Source: Candidatus Peregrinibacteria bacterium CG11_big_fil_rev_8_21_14_0_20_49_14 (lineage in GTDB: Bacteria; Patescibacteriota; Gracilibacteria; Peribacterales; Peribacteraceae). From it: 64,000 nucleotides of DNA. The position numbers were made by a program, and so were the translations under genes. The notes below the pieces were generated by a model. It saw only the letters and a list, made by a program, of their open reading frames with translations. It did not search any database and was not told the DNA's origin. The DNA lies in assembly GCA_002787035.1 (NCBI GenBank), contig PCVP01000016.1:17425-81424 (forward strand). Direction: 5' to 3'. Of this stretch, positions 1,034 through 29,474 are shown one piece after another (positions within the stretch are counted from its first letter, which is position 1; each line of letters opens with the position of its first letter).

Positions 1034-1873
1034 ATGCACTTCGCAGATGCTCTCACGCAGCGCTCTCAGAACACAGCTCCTATTTGTGTGGGGTTGGATC
1101 CGAATCTCTCCAAACTTCCGGACGGTATTACGAAAGATGCTGCGGGGGTACTGAGTTTTTCCAAAGGAATCATAGATGCGGTGAAGGATATCGCCGTATG
1201 TGTAAAGCCGCAGATGGCCTACTACGAAGTATTGGGCTGGGAGGGTATGAAGGTATTCTGGGAATCATGCGCGTACGCAAAAGAGCAGGGGCTTCTTGTA
1301 ATTGCAGACGGAAAGCGCAACGACATCGGCTCCACATGCGATGCATATGCGGATGCATACCTGCATGAGCACAGCCCCATAGATGCGCTTACCGTTTCAC
1401 CCTACCTTGGATCTGACGGCATCAAACCGTTTATGGAACGTTGTGCCAAAAATGAGAAAGGGATCTTTGTCTTGGTAAAAACAAGCAACCCCAGTTCGGG
1501 CGAACTGCAAGACCTGCCGTGCGGAGATGAAGTCGTACACGAACACATGGCTCAATTGGTGGAGAGTTGGGCAACCGAACACTTGGGATCTGCATCCGGT
1601 TTCTCTTGTATCGGGGCAGTTGTGGGAGCCACCTACCCCGAAGAACTGACGTACCTGAGAACTCTCATGCCTCATGTTCCCATTCTTATTCCGGGCTACG
1701 GAGCACAGGGTGGAGAAGCGGAAGATGTACGACCGGGATTCGTACCGAACGGAACGGGAGCAATTGTGAACTCTTCACGAGGAATCATATTCGCAAGCAG
1801 CGGCAACGACTGGCAAGAAGCAGCTTCAAAAGCTGCCCACGAAATGGCAGAGGTTATTACGGGTCTGTTCTAA
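1034..1873 (+). CDS. pyrF: orotidine 5'-phosphate decarboxylase (type 2 family)
   Basis: CVGLDPNLSKLP, VKPQMAYYEVLG, VIADGKRNDIGST and PGYGAQGG motifs. Confidence 0.93.
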   Translation: MHFADALTQRSQNTAPICVGLDPNLSKLPDGITKDAAGVLSFSKGIIDAVKDIAVCVKPQMAYYEVLGWEGMKVFWESCAYAKEQGLLVIADGKRNDIGSTCDAYADAYLHEHSPIDALTVSPYLGSDGIKPFMERCAKNEKGIFVLVKTSNPSSGELQDLPCGDEVVHEHMAQLVESWATEHLGSASGFSCIGAVVGATYPEELTYLRTLMPHVPILIPGYGAQGGEAEDVRPGFVPNGTGAIVNSSRGIIFASSGNDWQEAASKAAHEMAEVITGLF

Positions 1874-3528
1874 TACGTCCAGACTGTGCCGCTCGGCAAC
1901 GGGATTTGCGCATCTACCCACTGAAAATCGGCAGATCCGTCTGTCCATCGAATATCGCCTTGGCCGGATAGAGAGCCGTAGCTTTCTATATTTACCTGCA
2001 TAGAATCACCGCGAGAAGCCTGACTAAGGTTCACATTGCCGTACAAATCAAACACATCTCCCCGCCCTATTTCTTCCGGCAGAGCCAAGCAATTTACCGT
2101 CATGCGATCGAGAATATCATCGTTCTCTGTTGTGCACGGATACGTTCCAAAGTCACCTTCGCTCCTTACCTCCCAATTTGTAAGCTGAATTCCGGACGCA
2201 TGCTGCACATGGAATTGAAGGTGGCGCACGCGAAAATTCACACCCGTAACCACTTCTCTTTCTATACGAAACGACGCAAGTTTTCGTGCATTACTCTGCT
2301 GCAACTCGCCGGTATCCTGTAATTCATTTTTTACACCCGTAATGCGTGCCTGTGCGGTTTGGTGCATGGGATAATGCGCACCTGAAGGCACAATTTGATA
2401 ACTGACGGTTGCATCTTCCGTCTCTCCGACAATGACGAACATCGTTTTCACTTCTACTAAATCTTCCGAGAAGCCTCCCGTACCTCTTTCTTTCAGTAAC
2501 GCGTGCACCACTATCGTAGTCGGCTGCCCCGCAGGGAAAATATATCCCGTATCTCCGGGATTGAAGTCCGCTATCCATGTTTCATTGTCTCGATCACGCA
2601 AATCCAATTTTAATGTACCCAGATATGCTCCGCTTGCATCTTCCACGGAGAGTGACTGCAGGCTGCGAGCCTCTTTCTCCAACGTGATTTTCACTTGCCG
2701 AAGCTCTACGGGATTATCTCGCACAAACAACTTCGCATCTGCTATCGGAGTACTCTCACCCACCAGTAGAATGCTGCTTTGAATCGGTAAACGTATGCCC
2801 GGTTCAGGAGAAGGAAGTTCGGGCTGAGGTTCGGGCTGAGGTTCGGGTTCGGGCTTTGGCTGCGGTTGAGGTGGTGTAATGACAACGACATGCTTACCCA
2901 GTTCCGCCTTTCTGTAGTCTCCCAGAAGGCCGTCGAACTCCGCACGATATGCGGCAGCAAGCCTCGCCATCTGCCCGCGTGTTATATACCTGTCGTACGG
3001 AAGAGAAATAGGCAAAATCGTTTTATGATTTATGGCAGCCTGCACGTAGAACTCATACCATGGCGCATCCTGCTCCGCATATGCGGTGTATTCGTATAAC
3101 TCTCCCAAAATTTTCAGTGCTTCGGCATAGTTCACGGGGTTACCCGGACGAAAGTTTCCGTCAGGATACCCTGCGATGATATTGCGCTTCTTGGCCAAAC
3201 ACACATACGGCGAGAACCAATCTTCTGCTTGCACATCCGGAAAACACCTCTTGGAATCCGAAGTGGATACTGCAATGCGGGGGTAGCTGAGAATCGCAAT
3301 CTTTAGAAATTCCGCTCTGTTAAGAGTGCGTGCCGCAAGAAACGTGCCATCCGGATTGCCTTGCACGGCTCCGATATTGGTAAGCAGACTTATACCCGCA
3401 GCTTCCGCGGGACGAAAAGGAGCATCCGTATACATAAGGCTCTGGTCTGAGAAATCCAGAGCAGCCACTCCGAGCGGTAAAACCACACAACCGATTACAA
3501 TCGCAATACGTCGCATGGAAGACATCAT
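1870..3528 (-). CDS. secreted S-layer homology (SLH) domain protein with Pro/Glu linker
   Basis: Signal peptide; three SLH-like segments (VQGNPDGTFLAARTLNRAEFLKI, IIAGYPDGNFRPGNPVNYAEALKI, YITRGQMARLAAAY); PQPQPKPEPEPQPEPQPE linker. Exact start among several Met codons uncertain. Confidence 0.8.
   Translation of the reverse strand: MMSSMRRIAIVIGCVVLPLGVAALDFSDQSLMYTDAPFRPAEAAGISLLTNIGAVQGNPDGTFLAARTLNRAEFLKIAILSYPRIAVSTSDSKRCFPDVQAEDWFSPYVCLAKKRNIIAGYPDGNFRPGNPVNYAEALKILGELYEYTAYAEQDAPWYEFYVQAAINHKTILPISLPYDRYITRGQMARLAAAYRAEFDGLLGDYRKAELGKHVVVITPPQPQPKPEPEPQPEPQPELPSPEPGIRLPIQSSILLVGESTPIADAKLFVRDNPVELRQVKITLEKEARSLQSLSVEDASGAYLGTLKLDLRDRDNETWIADFNPGDTGYIFPAGQPTTIVVHALLKERGTGGFSEDLVEVKTMFVIVGETEDATVSYQIVPSGAHYPMHQTAQARITGVKNELQDTGELQQSNARKLASFRIEREVVTGVNFRVRHLQFHVQHASGIQLTNWEVRSEGDFGTYPCTTENDDILDRMTVNCLALPEEIGRGDVFDLYGNVNLSQASRGDSMQVNIESYGSLSGQGDIRWTDGSADFQWVDAQIPLPSGTVWTY
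2809..2868. repeat. low-complexity repeat coding for the P/E/Q linker
   Basis: Reiterated ggttcgggctga units on the + strand. Confidence 0.6.
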
Positions 3529-3576
3529 AGCGTGAATGTGAGAATCACGAAAACTACGGTTTTTCAATTCATTCGT

Positions 3577-4980: not shown

Positions 4981-5517
4981 CTATCCCTTCTTCAGCACCA
5001 CCACTTCACGTCCTTCCACCGGCAATCCCTTTACCTTGTATTCGCTCACAGCCTCCTGATTCTGCGCTCCACAGACATTCAATATTTCTGCATAGGTAGC
5101 TTCATCTCCGTTTGGAACGGGAATGAAGATACGAGGGTCTATTTCATCGACCAGTTTTTGTACCAACTTGGGATTGTTTGACGGGAGAACCAGCACATCT
5201 ATGTTCCCCAGCAACTCCAATTCATGGTCTTGCCATTCCTGAAGAGGAGCAGAAAGAAAACCAATGCGCACATCGTCCATTTCGACTGAGTATGAAACCT
5301 GACCCCCTTCGTTCTGCCCAATGCCACGAATGGCAATATTCTGTATATCGAACTCTCCGGGCCAAGAAATTATACCCTCCTGCGGAATTTCTTCCGGTTG
5401 TGCGCACAGAGTAAGCAGTGCATTCGCCTTCTCTATTTTATCCGGGAAGACAACGACCGCTTTGTCGCCCCATTCGCAGCGAACAGATGCACCCTTTGGT
5501 GAGCTAAAAACTAACAT
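4981..5517 (-). CDS. metallo-beta-lactamase-superfamily-like protein (divergent)
   Basis: IISWPGEFDIQNIAIRGIG and NIDVLVLP.NNPKLVQKLVDEIDPRIFIPV resemble short UlaG/MBL-like proteins of CPR bacteria. Confidence 0.5.
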   Translation of the reverse strand: MLVFSSPKGASVRCEWGDKAVVVFPDKIEKANALLTLCAQPEEIPQEGIISWPGEFDIQNIAIRGIGQNEGGQVSYSVEMDDVRIGFLSAPLQEWQDHELELLGNIDVLVLPSNNPKLVQKLVDEIDPRIFIPVPNGDEATYAEILNVCGAQNQEAVSEYKVKGLPVEGREVVVLKKG

Positions 5518-5591
5518 CGCAAAGATGATACTGGAGGGAAGGATACACGCAAAGAAATTTGCTCGGGATTCGTACTCCTTCTAAAGGAGAG

Positions 5592-5620
5592 ATACTATCT
5601 GATAGTATATTGATATCAAT
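5592..5620. promoter_or_regulatory. two abutting perfect palindromes (putative operators)
   Basis: ATACTATC-T-GATAGTAT (5592-5608) followed directly by ATTGATATCAAT (5609-5620), 7 bp before ATG 5628. Confidence 0.5.
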
Positions 5621-5627
5621 TTGTTCT

Positions 5628-8600
5628 ATGCGTAGTACTTTCGATAAGCGATTGGTCATCATAGGGATTATTTCTGCGGTTATAGCCGTTCATTTCTGGG
5701 CGGGTTCTCGTATTCCACAACTGAATGAAAAAGCGTCGATGGGTACGGAAATGAGTATGAATGCCCTTGGTTTCTCCACGGTATTGGAAGTGCAACCCTC
5801 AGACTCATGGGCGAAAGAAATTGCCTACACATCCATAAACTGGGCACAAACGAATAAGAAAGGAATGACATTCGGAGTCCTGTTTGCCACTTGTCTCATG
5901 ACTATTTTCTCATTGCTGCGAAAGCGTGGAACGAAGGGTAGATTTTCAAACAGCTTCCTCGGCTTCTGTATAGGAGCACCACTGAGCGTATGCGTAAACT
6001 GTGCGGCACCTATGGCTCAGGGTCTTTCAGCCCGCGGTGCAAAAATGGAAACGACTCTCGCAGTAATGATGACCTCTCCGACAATGAACTTCATTGTCCT
6101 TACAATGCTCTTCTCGTTGTTTCCTCCGTATCTCATTGGAATCAAAATCGTATTTACCGTCGTATTTATTCTTGTGGGCATTCCTCTGCTCTCTCGCTTT
6201 GTCTTACAAAAGGAATCCGAAAAGGCGCAAGACTGCGAGTTGCCTGCGTCGCTTATGCAGTCATGCCCTGCCGATACGGCACATACTCCGGAGGGAGAGA
6301 AAGCCGCTACACATTGGTTTCCCGCACTGCTTTGGACTGTAAAAGAACTGTGTAAAAATTTGTGGTTCATATTCAGAACGACTGTTCCTCTCATGCTTGC
6401 CGCAGGAATATTGGGTGCGACGATGATTACGTTGCTTCCGTGGGATTCTATCGTGGAACTTCTCCCAAATGGTGGCATTCTTTCCACTGTCATTGCCATG
6501 GTTGCCCTTGCGGCCGTCGGAACATTTTTACCGGTTCCAATCAGCTTCGATGTACTGACCTGTGCGGTATTACTTGCCGCAGGAATGCCTCCTCACTACG
6601 TAGCGGTGCTGCTGTTTACGTTGGGCATTTACAGTGTTTATTCATTCATGATCGTATGGCAGGCAATTTCACCGAAGACGGCAATCACGCTCTTTCTCTC
6701 TGTCACCCTACTCGGAGTGGCAGCAGGATGCTCGGGCTATGTTCTGCATCAAAGGGTGATTGCAAAAAATATGGCACAGATTTCCCTGTTGCTTTCGGAA
6801 GAAACCGACGAAAAAATGCAACCTGCTCCCCGCATGGAATCTTCTGTACCGATACCGAGAGAGCTTCCGACTGAAGAGGTGCTTCGACCATTTGCAATAC
6901 AAACAGCAAGTGGCATTTCCGTTCTAATATCACCGCTTGCTACACGCTCGGCACCTGCCAAAACACTCTTTACAAAAGTTCCCGCATCTTCCGTAGGACT
7001 GGATGAGCCGTACATATTCTCCTTTTTACGGATGAACTTCCCATTCGAGCAAGGGTACGGCAGGGCAATTGCTACCGGAGACATACACAATGACGGATGG
7101 GCGGATGTTTTGTTTACCTCCGAAGCGGGACTGTCTCTCTATGCAAACTACGACGGTCATTTTGAAAAACAAGAAATAAATGTGCCGGAAATGAAGCAAC
7201 ACATCATTACGAATGCTGCTTTGGTCGATGTAAACAATGACAACTGGTTGGATATTTTCTATACCACCCTTACGAAAGGGTCTCACATTATTTTCAATAA
7301 TCATGGAGTATTTCAGTCGGAGGGATATCGCCCCGTAACGGAGGACAATGTCTCCATTATGACAACGGCAATGGGTTTTGGTGATTTGGATAACAACGGT
7401 TTCATAGATGTTGTACTGGGCAAGTGGGACTGGTCGCTCGATGGTGTCACCAAAACTTCGGCAAATTCAGAAATTCGACTCCTGATGAATGACGGAGATA
7501 TTTTTCGCAGTGTGCAACTGTTGGCCGCACCTGTAAATCCGACCAGTATTCTCATTACGGATTTCGACGCAGACGGTTACCGAGACATTATTGTAGGAAA
7601 CGATCTCTCCTCTCCGGATTTGTACTATCTCGGGAAAGGCAACGGTGAATTTAGTGTAATAAACCATAAGCAAAAACTTATTTCCAATACCACTTCCCAC
7701 ACGATGAGTGTTGCGGGAGCGGATATAAATAACGATCTTACGCAGGAGATTCTCCTGGCCAACATCGCACGGTACGAAGACCATGATCATGCATCACCCT
7801 CGTATGAAGAAGCATGTGAACTTCTCAAGAATGAAGAGAAACTGTCATGTAAGAGAGACTATCTGTTGCAAGAAACATTCTCATTGGCAAAAAAGAATGA
7901 AGATGTGTCTGTCTGTATGAAGATAGAAGACAAATCGTACAGAAAGCAGTGTATTTTGTATTACTACGTCCGAGAGAAAAATTGTGAAAAAATTCCTACT
8001 TCATGGGAAGAATCTTCCTTCGTATGCAATGCACTGAAGAAGGAAGCCAGCAGGCATTTTAAAAACCCAATTTTCAATTTCTCCATTCCGCAAACGGTTA
8101 AGAAGAATGTGTTGCTGGTACGAAACGGGAGTGGCGGATTTACGGATATGGCTGAAGAATACGGAGTAGATAAGGCGGGCTGGGCTTGGAATATGCAATT
8201 TGCCGATATGAATAATGATGAATGGCAGGATATTTTTACCGTCAACGGTTCCACTATTGCTGTCAAAATTCGTGAATCCAATTACGCATTCATCAACCAA
8301 AGAGGAGAAAATTTTGTAAACGCAACGCAAGAACTTGGCTTAACTTCCCACAGTACTACGAACTCATACAGCTATATGGATATCGATAACGACGGCGATT
8401 TGGATATCGTCACTATTCCTATAAATGCCCCCATAGAGGTATACATGAACAATGAAAACGACAATAACGCAATTGCTGTGGAGCTGCGTGACTCCAAAGG
8501 AAATTCGTTTGGAGTGGGCAGTCTTATCTCTCTCTATTATACGGACGGAACTGCGCCTCACCAACTGCGAGAAATCGTAGCCAGCGGAGGGAAAGGGTCA

Positions 8601-8744
8601 TTCCATGCGCCCGTCGGATTTTTTGGTCTCGGCAAAAGTACAAAAGTGGATCGCATGGAAATCGTATGGCCGGATGGAATTCGCACCGTCCTGAGCGGGG
8701 AATTCATGGCAGGCAACAGATATCGAATAGAGAGAGAAAACTAA
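5628..8744 (+). CDS. predicted permease fused to FG-GAP/VCBS repeats and an ASPIC/UnbV-like C-terminal domain
   Basis: N-terminal multi-TM with GAPLSVCVNCAAPMAQGLSARGAKMETTLAVMMTSPTMNFIVL (PF03773-like); repeated DxNxDGxxD (DIHNDGWAD, DVNNDNWLD, DLDNNGFID, DFDADGYRD, DMNNDEWQD, DIDNDGDLD); C-terminal GVGSLISLYY...IVASGGKGSFHAPVGFFGLGKSTKVDRMEIVWPDG is ASPIC/UnbV-like. Confidence 0.8.
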   Translation: MRSTFDKRLVIIGIISAVIAVHFWAGSRIPQLNEKASMGTEMSMNALGFSTVLEVQPSDSWAKEIAYTSINWAQTNKKGMTFGVLFATCLMTIFSLLRKRGTKGRFSNSFLGFCIGAPLSVCVNCAAPMAQGLSARGAKMETTLAVMMTSPTMNFIVLTMLFSLFPPYLIGIKIVFTVVFILVGIPLLSRFVLQKESEKAQDCELPASLMQSCPADTAHTPEGEKAATHWFPALLWTVKELCKNLWFIFRTTVPLMLAAGILGATMITLLPWDSIVELLPNGGILSTVIAMVALAAVGTFLPVPISFDVLTCAVLLAAGMPPHYVAVLLFTLGIYSVYSFMIVWQAISPKTAITLFLSVTLLGVAAGCSGYVLHQRVIAKNMAQISLLLSEETDEKMQPAPRMESSVPIPRELPTEEVLRPFAIQTASGISVLISPLATRSAPAKTLFTKVPASSVGLDEPYIFSFLRMNFPFEQGYGRAIATGDIHNDGWADVLFTSEAGLSLYANYDGHFEKQEINVPEMKQHIITNAALVDVNNDNWLDIFYTTLTKGSHIIFNNHGVFQSEGYRPVTEDNVSIMTTAMGFGDLDNNGFIDVVLGKWDWSLDGVTKTSANSEIRLLMNDGDIFRSVQLLAAPVNPTSILITDFDADGYRDIIVGNDLSSPDLYYLGKGNGEFSVINHKQKLISNTTSHTMSVAGADINNDLTQEILLANIARYEDHDHASPSYEEACELLKNEEKLSCKRDYLLQETFSLAKKNEDVSVCMKIEDKSYRKQCILYYYVREKNCEKIPTSWEESSFVCNALKKEASRHFKNPIFNFSIPQTVKKNVLLVRNGSGGFTDMAEEYGVDKAGWAWNMQFADMNNDEWQDIFTVNGSTIAVKIRESNYAFINQRGENFVNATQELGLTSHSTTNSYSYMDIDNDGDLDIVTIPINAPIEVYMNNENDNNAIAVELRDSKGNSFGVGSLISLYYTDGTAPHQLREIVASGGKGSFHAPVGFFGLGKSTKVDRMEIVWPDGIRTVLSGEFMAGNRYRIEREN

Positions 8745-10015
8745 ACTTCTCTCGCTGTCTCTATTTTTACAATTTTTGCGCCTAAGCTACGCAGTTTTTC
8801 ATCGAGACGGTCGTACCCTCTCTCTATATAGCGAACATCGGTAATCGTTGTTTCTCCTTCCGCACAGAGTGCGGCGATAACCATGGCAGCCCCTGCGCGA
8901 ATGTCGTTACTGGCAACCGTACGGCTTCGTAGGGGAGTGGGCCCGATAATCAGCGCTTCGTGAGAGTTCAGTACCTCCACATGCGCTCCCATCTTTTCCA
9001 GTTCGTACAGATATGCCATACGCCCTTCGAACAGTCGCTCGAAAATACGACTGACTCCCTTGGCCTGCGTAAGTGCCACTCCCATTGGTGCCTGCAAGTC
9101 GGTTGGGAAGCCCGGGAAAATATTGGTTTTTACATTCAGTGATTGCAGCGAAGAAATCTCACCGTCTACAAAAAGCACTCCTTCGTCGTTGTACTTACAT
9201 ATCCCACCAAGTCGTTGAATCGTATCTAAGAAAGAAAGCAAATGTTCCGGGTCCGTGCCGTGCAAACGCACTTTTCCTTTCGTCACCAATGCGGCAATAA
9301 CAAGGCACCCCGCTTCGAGGTAATCGAATGGTACGGTTGCAGATACGCACTGCAATGACTTCTTTCCCCGAACAACAACAGTGTGCGTTCCTATGCCCTC
9401 GACCTCCGCACCCATATCTCGGGCCATCATCTCCACTGCTTGCACGTGAGGTTCTGCGGCTGCGATATCTATGCGGGTTTCACCTTCCAGGAGTGCTGCT
9501 GCAAGAACAGCGTTCTCTGTGGCAGTGACAGAGAACTCAGGCAGTACTATGCGACCGGGTCGCAGTTCCCCCTGCAAATGCAGTACTTCCTCCGTACTCA
9601 TATTCTGAGCACCGAGTTGCTCCAACGCTCCGATATGCGCTCCGACAGGACGCTTCCCGAGTACGCATCCGCCGGGATACGCCATTTCCACCACTCCAAA
9701 CCTGGCCAGAAGAGGACCAAGCAGTACGATGGATCCGCGTAACTTGGAAACAAACTCGGATGAAATAGGCTTACTTTGCAGGTTGTGTGTGCGTATGCGT
9801 ACCGTGCCGTTTTGAAACGATGTCTCCCCACCGAGAAATTCAAGGATGGAAAGCATGGAACGTACGTCTCGCAAGTCCGGCACGTTATGCAGTACCGTCT
9901 CTCCGCTACAGAGAACGGACCCTGCCATCATGGGAAGAGCGGCATTTTTCGAGCCGCCTATGGTCACATCTCCGCGAAGCGCGGTGCCACCCTGTACTCT
10001 GTATTGAATATCCAT
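8741..10015 (-). CDS. murA: UDP-N-acetylglucosamine 1-carboxyvinyltransferase
   Basis: GGSKNAALPMMAGSVL, PGGCVLGKRPVGAHIGALEQLGA (active-site Cys region), FPTDLQAPMGVALTQAKGVSRIFE. Listed ORF extends further upstream; MDIQYRVQGG is the likely start. Confidence 0.95.
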   Translation of the reverse strand: MDIQYRVQGGTALRGDVTIGGSKNAALPMMAGSVLCSGETVLHNVPDLRDVRSMLSILEFLGGETSFQNGTVRIRTHNLQSKPISSEFVSKLRGSIVLLGPLLARFGVVEMAYPGGCVLGKRPVGAHIGALEQLGAQNMSTEEVLHLQGELRPGRIVLPEFSVTATENAVLAAALLEGETRIDIAAAEPHVQAVEMMARDMGAEVEGIGTHTVVVRGKKSLQCVSATVPFDYLEAGCLVIAALVTKGKVRLHGTDPEHLLSFLDTIQRLGGICKYNDEGVLFVDGEISSLQSLNVKTNIFPGFPTDLQAPMGVALTQAKGVSRIFERLFEGRMAYLYELEKMGAHVEVLNSHEALIIGPTPLRSRTVASNDIRAGAAMVIAALCAEGETTITDVRYIERGYDRLDEKLRSLGAKIVKIETAREV

Positions 10016-10082
10016 GAGGCTAGAAGTATAGCGTATGCGCAAGTAACGGAAACAGACATCGAAGATATTCTGCACCCACCTT

Positions 10083-10523
10083 TTACGACTCCATATTCGC
10101 TTTCTTCCGTATAAGAAGCATTTCCAGCAATAAGAGAGCCACACCGATTGTTATGCAGCTATCCGCCGTATTGAAGATAGGAAAAGTGCCAATTTGAAAT
10201 AAATCGGTCACTTTGCCATCTAAGAATCTGTCGACGATATTTGCCATGCCACCACCAAGAATGAGCCCGAATCCGAGTGCACTCTCTCTGCTCTTTGCTG
10301 TACGAAGAGCCATGGAAAAAAGCACCGTGACCGCCACCGCAATCAGCAATGGCTCAAAGAGCCCTAATTCAAGCCCAAAAGCCACTCCGGAATTCTTAGA
10401 TGGAGTAAGCCCTACCGCAGAACCAATAATGGGAATTCGCTCATGTAAATAGCGCTCAGTAAGCAATGTGGATATCACGCTTCCGATAAAACTGACGGCC
10501 GTTGTACCCCAAAAAAGACGCAT
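10083..10523 (-). CDS. lspA: lipoprotein signal peptidase
   Basis: NSGVAFGL, GGGMANIVDRFLDGKVTDLFQIG and FNTADSCITIGV motifs. Confidence 0.92.
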   Translation of the reverse strand: MRLFWGTTAVSFIGSVISTLLTERYLHERIPIIGSAVGLTPSKNSGVAFGLELGLFEPLLIAVAVTVLFSMALRTAKSRESALGFGLILGGGMANIVDRFLDGKVTDLFQIGTFPIFNTADSCITIGVALLLLEMLLIRKKANMES

Positions 10524-28007: not shown

Positions 28008-29474
28008 TCAGCCATTACTGACATTTCCCACGACACTGTATATCGGAACAATGATAGCAAAAGCGATGGTACCTACGAGCGCTCCTATGAAGAGAAGGAG
28101 TAATGGCTCGAGAATGATAGGCAATTTTTCAGCAGTTTCAGATGCCTTCCTTTCGTATATTTTGGCTATTTTAAGCAGAGTTTCAGACAACGTTCCCGAC
28201 CGCTCACCCGTCACCACTAATTGCTGGACAGAAACAGGAAGAAGTTTCTTTGTTTGTGGCATAAGTTCAAATGCTTTCGCAAAAGAGTCTCCGACATTAA
28301 TGCGATGCAAAACTTGTTCATAGAATGTTTTGTATGCGTATACCTGCGTGACTCCCACAAGCGACTCCAATGCTTCCACCAACGGCACACCTGCACGAAG
28401 CAGTCCTCCGAGTATCACACCGAATCGTGCAATGGTCGCTTCTCGTGCCAAGGAGCCGATTCCGGGAATGCGAAACATACACCACTGCGTGACTGCTTTA
28501 AATCTGGTGAACTTGGAAAGAAGCGCCAGAAAAATAAAGAGCCCTATGAGAAGTGGCGCGAGAGTCATGCCGTACGCCTCAAAGAACTTGGTTATCTGAA
28601 TAACAATTCGTGTCGTAAGCGGGAGTTCCACATTCAGGGAATAGAGCACCTGCACAAGGTTTGGCAGCACAAAAATTCCAAGTCCCATGACGATGATAAA
28701 CATCATTGAAAGTACGATAGAGGGGTAAATCATCGCCATTTTTACCTTCTGCTTGAGTGCATGATCTTTTTCCTGCTGTTCGGAAAGATACTCCATGTTG
28801 CGCGCGAGATTTCCCGCATCTTCTCCTATGTGTACCAGTGCGATTTCATACGGAGTGAAAAAATATGTTTTATCCATGGCACGCCAGAGCGGTGCTCCGT
28901 TTTCTACGGATACCAAAATTTTGGCCACCATTTTCTTCACTGCCTTGGAACGAACTTCCGCCTCAAACGCTTTGAGAGAATCCAACAAAGGCAGTCCTGC
29001 ATTCAACATGGTCGCCAGACTTTGAATAAACATATGCCTGTACTTGCCCATGCCGAGATAGTTCAGAGTTTGAAAGAATGCACTCACTCCACTTTCTTTC
29101 TTCTGCTCTCGTACCTCTATGGTAAAAGGCGTATTTGCCGACTCTTCTTCGGGAGCATCTTGCGTCTTTGATTCTTGAGATGTGGAATCTGCTTTCTTCC
29201 GAAAAGAAAACCATTTTCTCCTCTTCGTTTTTTCGGTGCTCTTTTTTAATTTTTTCGTATCCGTTGGAACTTTTTTTCTGTCCCCAAAACTGTTTGTGCT
29301 CTGTGAGGGGCTTTCTTTCACGGTATCCTGAGTCTCTGCCACTGCTTCTGTTGACACCTCTTGTTGAACCGGTGTTGCAGATTTTTTCGTCTTCTTTTTG
29401 TGTGTTGTCGCAGCACTGCGCTTTGGCGCAGTTTTCTTTTTTATTGCCTCAGATTTCTTACTTTTTCTTACCAT
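28008..29474 (-). CDS. pilC: type IV pilus inner-membrane platform protein (PilC/GspF family)
   Basis: FIQSLATMLNAGLPLLDSLKAFEAE, LEPLLLLFIGALVGTIAFAIIVPIYSVVGNV; Lys-rich N-terminal extension of roughly 120 aa. Confidence 0.9.
   Translation of the reverse strand: MVRKSKKSEAIKKKTAPKRSAATTHKKKTKKSATPVQQEVSTEAVAETQDTVKESPSQSTNSFGDRKKVPTDTKKLKKSTEKTKRRKWFSFRKKADSTSQESKTQDAPEEESANTPFTIEVREQKKESGVSAFFQTLNYLGMGKYRHMFIQSLATMLNAGLPLLDSLKAFEAEVRSKAVKKMVAKILVSVENGAPLWRAMDKTYFFTPYEIALVHIGEDAGNLARNMEYLSEQQEKDHALKQKVKMAMIYPSIVLSMMFIIVMGLGIFVLPNLVQVLYSLNVELPLTTRIVIQITKFFEAYGMTLAPLLIGLFIFLALLSKFTRFKAVTQWCMFRIPGIGSLAREATIARFGVILGGLLRAGVPLVEALESLVGVTQVYAYKTFYEQVLHRINVGDSFAKAFELMPQTKKLLPVSVQQLVVTGERSGTLSETLLKIAKIYERKASETAEKLPIILEPLLLLFIGALVGTIAFAIIVPIYSVVGNVSNG

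Follow-up and report, generated by a model that had tools for sequence, protein, structure and literature searches.

Does the open reading frame at positions 5,628 to 8,744 of this stretch encode a real protein in which a multi-helix permease continues into a β-propeller, and what could such a protein do? Throughout, the window denotes the whole 64 kb stretch of DNA that was analysed.

A permease fused to a CRTAC1-like ectodomain

The forward strand carries a single uninterrupted frame from an ATG at 5628 to a stop at 8744 (1038 aa). The mechanical ORF start is a TTG at 5559; homologues favour a start near 5628. Three domains exceed their Pfam cut-offs in this one frame: ArsP_1 (PF03773; 52.3 bits vs 32.3, aa 102-367), FG-GAP_3 (115.3 bits vs 26.9, in six stretches of the protein) and UnbV_ASPIC (42.5 bits vs 23.4, aa 962-1023). 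This confirms what an earlier note had read from the letters, namely a PF03773-like permease half joined to a propeller and an ASPIC/UnbV-like C-terminus. The 1.44 Mb genome contains one copy of the gene, which is laid out as follows, all on the forward strand:

5628-8744: fusion ORF, permease plus CRTAC1-like ectodomain (1038 aa, full-length homologues)
5628-6812: permease half, aa 1-395 (AlphaFold2 model, pLDDT 86.9, pTM 0.86 when folded alone)
5931-6728: ArsP_1 (PF03773) match, aa 102-367 (Pfam)
5991-6002: CVNC motif, aa 122-125 (its two Cys are kept in all 27 rows of alignment A2 and are invariant in the 63-row alignment A5)
6960-8468: FG-GAP β-propeller, aa 445-947, split by a helical insert (Pfam, model, seven Ca-loop-like motifs)
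7773-8072: helical insert that interrupts the propeller and contains six conserved Cys, aa 716-815 (model, alignment)
8511-8696: UnbV_ASPIC domain, aa 962-1023 (Pfam)

A misassembly or frameshift joining two genes was ruled out and is vanishingly improbable, because full-length relatives occur on eight plasmids of PLSDB and at 80 loci fetched from species genomes, and the flanks are colinear with those of relatives. Both doubts attached to the earlier reading, that the N-terminus might fit no permease family and that the junction might be artefactual, thus fall away: the N-terminus is placed in ArsP_1, and the fusion recurs in many independent assemblies. The joining of an ArsP_1-type permease to a CRTAC1-like ectodomain in this ORF is real and conserved.

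The architecture, which had seemed unfamiliar, is not peculiar to the window genome, and a survey for the same fusion elsewhere recovered full-length relatives in plasmids and species genomes alike. The tblastn search of PLSDB matched 40 records, eight of which cover 80% or more of the query (34-36% identity), from Roseobacter-group bacteria; the plasmids with the full-length fusion include circular ones, and their records name the product just ‘FG-GAP-like repeat-containing protein’. When 84,980 species genomes were scanned with an alignment, 259 pattern matches came up, 121 of which encode relatives. The best 80 of these 121 were kept as loci (34-44% identity), mostly from marine Alphaproteobacteria. 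Single-protein scans returned 12 pattern matches in species-genome contigs and seven in viral contigs, with no relatives in either set. Altogether 88 loci (L007-L094) were fetched and the full fusion was called in 81: the ORF caller missed the frame in five (L009, L020, L021, L059 and L073), L084 is cut at a contig end, and L011 is split in three frames and annotated accordingly as three pieces. All 27 members of A2 that were scanned contain ArsP_1 (each at E≤0.001), FG-GAP and UnbV_ASPIC. The fusion is therefore a conserved family of marine bacteria, carried also by cultured Roseobacter and Maricaulis strains, and apparently unstudied; a literature search of incomplete coverage found no published account of a permease-CRTAC1-like fusion. 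It unites a transporter family and an orphan CRTAC1/ASPIC ectodomain in one conserved protein.

The membrane half and what it probably presents outside

Like ArsP, SaoE and SO_0444, the fusion matches the PF03773 HMM over its cut-off, and it has a CxxC in the first hairpin, at the same place as in a Ligilactobacillus permease. It differs from these ArsP_1 permeases at its N-terminus, where an additional helix precedes a conserved FWxGSRxPxLxEK stretch, and in its ectodomain of ~640 aa. It also stays below the cut-offs of the SaoE (NF040736; 37.5 of 325 bits) and SO_0444 Cu/Zn exporter (NF033936; 32.8 of 300 bits) equivalogs. These scores weigh on the view that the protein is one more efflux pump for heavy metals or organoarsenicals, its propeller being decoration or a stabiliser. 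In favour of that view are its ArsP_1 membership, the shared position of the CxxC and the induction of an SO_0444 relative by Cd and Cu described in PMC10092412. No metal-resistance family was found among the Pfam-scanned neighbour clusters, in which part of the neighbours is annotated and which comprise secretion, Sel1, export, sulfotransferase and similar functions. On balance, we consider such a pump unlikely.

The best structural matches of the permease-half model are elevator-type transporters (NaDC3, Z 11.4; Pho90, 10.6; ArsB, 10.5; NaS1, 10.4). Across IT/DASS elevator transporters the scores span Z 9 to 11.4, below the level of ~13 that is safer for helical matches, and the model may accordingly be said to resemble elevator-type transporters weakly. 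Foldseek gave no match with the permease half at E≤0.001 (best E 0.094), and searching PDB sequences with the profile of the permease returned no solved ArsP_1 relative. According to PMC7176098, ArsP_1 consists of two four-helix repeats and ArsP belongs to another superfamily, TOG, which counts against the elevator reading. The two halves of our permease aligned to each other at the expected place, with a non-significant hhalign E of 0.39.

The weak likeness to NaDC3, NaS1 and INDY is what favours an importer, the idea of the earlier note, in which the propeller would capture an extracellular substrate and the permease take it in. Neither next to the window copy nor among the recurrent annotated clusters could a partner for uptake or catabolism be recognised, and, as far as the consulted parts of PMC7176098 and PMC10092412 go, ArsP_1 members with data are described as exporters; import seems decidedly improbable.

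The helices were read as TM1 (7-27), TM2 (77-96), a hairpin with the CVNC motif (105-135), TM3 (140-164), TM4 (167-191), TM5 (~247-269), a second hairpin (284-317), TM6 (322-346) and TM7 (from 349). From this we infer a cytoplasmic N-terminus, seven membrane crossings and two re-entrant hairpins. The odd number of crossings, together with the basic 96-104 loop (mean 3.0 K+R, 0.1 D+E), would place the propeller, insert and ASPIC domain outside the cytoplasmic membrane. The loop 27-76 has 3.9 K+R and 6.9 D+E. The supposedly cytoplasmic loop 193-229, however, is net acidic (2.0 K+R, 4.6 D+E), contrary to the positive-inside rule, and counts against this placement. CRTAC1 itself is a secreted protein. 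The earlier picture of a transporter bearing its own extracellular propeller is thus partly supported: the architecture, permease family and C-terminus stand, and the outside location is favoured indirectly by helix parity, the positive loop, the conserved Cys of the insert and homology to CRTAC1. The role proposed there, substrate capture or adhesion coupled to metal or oxyanion transport, stays a conjecture.

The ectodomain model (aa 445-1038) matches murine CRTAC1 (9etn) with Z 36.8 over 446 aligned residues at an rmsd of 2.6 and is thereby predicted to share the fold of solved CRTAC1; the model of the whole protein reached pLDDT 77.4 and pTM 0.64. With FG-GAP repeats and UnbV_ASPIC both over cut-off, the ectodomain is of the CRTAC1 type. 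Propeller and ASPIC fold are common to the fusion and the CRTAC1 family (FG-GAP plus ASPIC/UnbV), whereas the tether to a permease and the helical insert with six Cys distinguish the fusion. Among these Cys, residues 730, 741, 763 and 775 are kept in 27 of 27 rows, and 786 and 800 in 25, being absent from L023 and L078 only. The insert was not part of the earlier description, nor were the insertion site and the link to type II secretion that relatives show, both described below. The same description had counted at least six Ca-binding-like repeats: a loose DxNxDGxxD-like pattern finds seven (aa 485, 534, 586, 645, 699, 860 and 918) and a stricter one five, where 2000 shuffles of aa 441-1038 gave 0.15 motifs on average and never more than 3. 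Successive blades likewise carry DxDxDG-type loops in the bacterial integrin-type β-propellers surveyed in PMC3192720, none of which that survey found with a membrane anchor; the propeller of the fusion differs in being joined to a multi-helix permease, and so supplies a membrane context for a bacterial integrin-type propeller.

Such an ectodomain, FG-GAP, integrin-like and CRTAC1-like, could suit an adhesin or receptor whose propeller does the work and whose permease half is a membrane anchor only, the more so as giant Ig-like proteins lie near the fusion in 12 of the 88 loci. Conservation does not fit this well: it is roughly equal in the permease core (0.73 and 0.63) and the propeller (0.67), and C122, N124, C125, S150, P151, N154, P302, P304 and D308 are invariant in the 63-row alignment. 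Polar and Cys residues invariant inside the membrane would not be needed by a mere anchor, and we find the adhesin or receptor improbable.

Secretion-linked neighbourhoods and a tentative mechanism

In relatives the fusion has recurrent company. Sel1 proteins occur at 65 of the 88 loci by clustering and tblastn, and two further exported families at 67 (C2) and 72 (C3), all such neighbour counts being lower bounds because contig ends often truncate the loci. C2 (~390 aa; e.g. L053:5877-7004), judged exported by its N-terminus, has no Pfam family over cut-off and an SxCxGxDC motif invariant in 14 rows; C3 (~157 aa; e.g. L049:7275-7724) is likewise without a Pfam match over cut-off. Of Sel1, C3 and C2, at least one lies near the fusion in 74 of the 81 loci with a scored fusion, among them most alphaproteobacterial ones. 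All three stand upstream on the same strand in 33 loci and downstream on the same strand in nine; given these several arrangements, the linkage has outlasted rearrangement. A type II secretion or A24 prepilin-peptidase gene was found at 48 of the 88 loci, 38 of which have the A24 peptidase. In 23 of 81 loci, sulfotransferase homologues are encoded no more than 3.5 kb from the fusion. Neighbour clusters 5, 11 and 20 resembled antisense artefacts and were left uninterpreted. The fusion thus points to a secretion-linked gene set that includes two exported families without a Pfam name.

The seven loci lacking Sel1, C3 and C2 are L015, L016, L023, L078, L060, L065 and L079. A nonribosomal peptide synthetase and a sulfotransferase adjoin the fusion in L015, an ABC ATPase and an Asp-hydroxylase in L023, and a Transglut_core3 protein in L078. 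Five deep-branching members, that of the window among them, are without these partners, and tblastn over the 64 kb of the window found none of the three. Its relatives sit inside surface loci of Rhodobacterales and Maricaulales that are linked to type II secretion; no neighbours of this kind surround the window copy. Elsewhere in its own genome, C2 gave six weak matches (best E 2.9e-6) in two long ORFs; they span profile positions 113-307 of 388, outside the conserved N-terminal part, and were taken as generic fibre repeats. A fibre-repeat-like ORF of 1240 aa, L106 (G000:C8), matches the C2 profile weakly.

How might the two halves work together? The permease half may be a secondary transporter of the elevator type, with the CVNC in the first hairpin forming part of its site; the likely cargo would then be a thiophilic ion, or a small molecule containing a thiol or sulfur. 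Ca2+ loops and disulfides would stabilise the tethered ectodomain, which could receive this cargo or dock the partner that is served; in Alphaproteobacteria this partner would most likely be the linked exported fibre module adjoining the type II secretion genes. We put forward elevator transport of such a cargo, with hand-over to the ectodomain or a partner, tentatively. A narrower version, in which an elevator exporter would pass CxxC-bound cargo across the membrane directly to its own CRTAC1-like, disulfide-rich ectodomain, and the ectodomain would use it to mature a fibre protein secreted by a dedicated type II secretion system, is quite doubtful. If true, it would make the fusion a so far undescribed accessory of type II secretion, one that has also travelled on its own to further lineages, including that of the window.

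Insertion between two neighbouring genes

The surroundings of the fusion in the window are as follows:

4981-5517, reverse strand: left flank, metallo-β-lactamase-fold gene (Lactamase_B_3; sequence search)
~5560-8752, no strand: segment absent from G380 of the same genus, which has ~43 bp instead (comparison with G380)
5592-5608, no strand: perfect 17-bp palindrome ATACTATCTGATAGTAT upstream of the fusion start (sole genome copy at ≤2 mismatches)
8741-10144, reverse strand: right flank, convergent with the fusion, with which it shares 4 bp (ORF list, sequence search); from its sequence we take it to be a MurA-like gene

The palindrome is possibly an operator or an RNA hairpin. The MurA-like and metallo-β-lactamase-fold genes were sought in 40 family genomes; each was found in 39, always on the same contig. 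They lie within 224 bp of each other in 36 of 38 relatives, the exceptions being G300 and G346 (1.4 and 1.9 kb), and 3.2 kb apart in the window. The window fusion is a lone insertion between two otherwise adjacent genes, and this adjacency in 36 of 38 relatives makes horizontal acquisition likely, as the simplest reading.

In a tree of 79 rows (L011, L077 and rows >1120 aa excluded), the window sequence joins L015 and then L016 (SH-aLRT 98 and 96), apart from a 74-row, mainly alphaproteobacterial clade; its row is a long branch, which makes the join with L015 uncertain and perhaps false. Gene content and the recoded relatives in the class suggest that the window genome is patescibacterial. Within the phylum, the full fusion was found in the window genome only, 1 of 239 genomes by single-protein search; an alignment search of the class gave 1 of 192, and the permease half was found in 1 of 379 genomes searched in the phylum (these samples overlap). 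The class relative G321, in whose genome in-frame TGA is read as glycine, has a stand-alone permease half of 341 aa (L104:5937-6962, reverse strand). In G010 an ectodomain half that includes the six-Cys insert is spread over two frames, with no permease attached (L105:1-1475, reverse strand); it has the appearance of a relic or of an error in sequencing.

The window genome has no further UnbV_ASPIC domain at E≤0.01. It has one further ArsP_1 gene in total, at L113 (G000:C18:71213-72076); a frame sharing that locus is presumably multicopper-oxidase-like. Near the fusion, an S-layer-homology protein is encoded at 1870-3567 on the reverse strand, and a GspF/PilC-like match at 28125-29030 (reverse strand; tblastn, 70.9 bits) suggests pilus assembly genes in the window.
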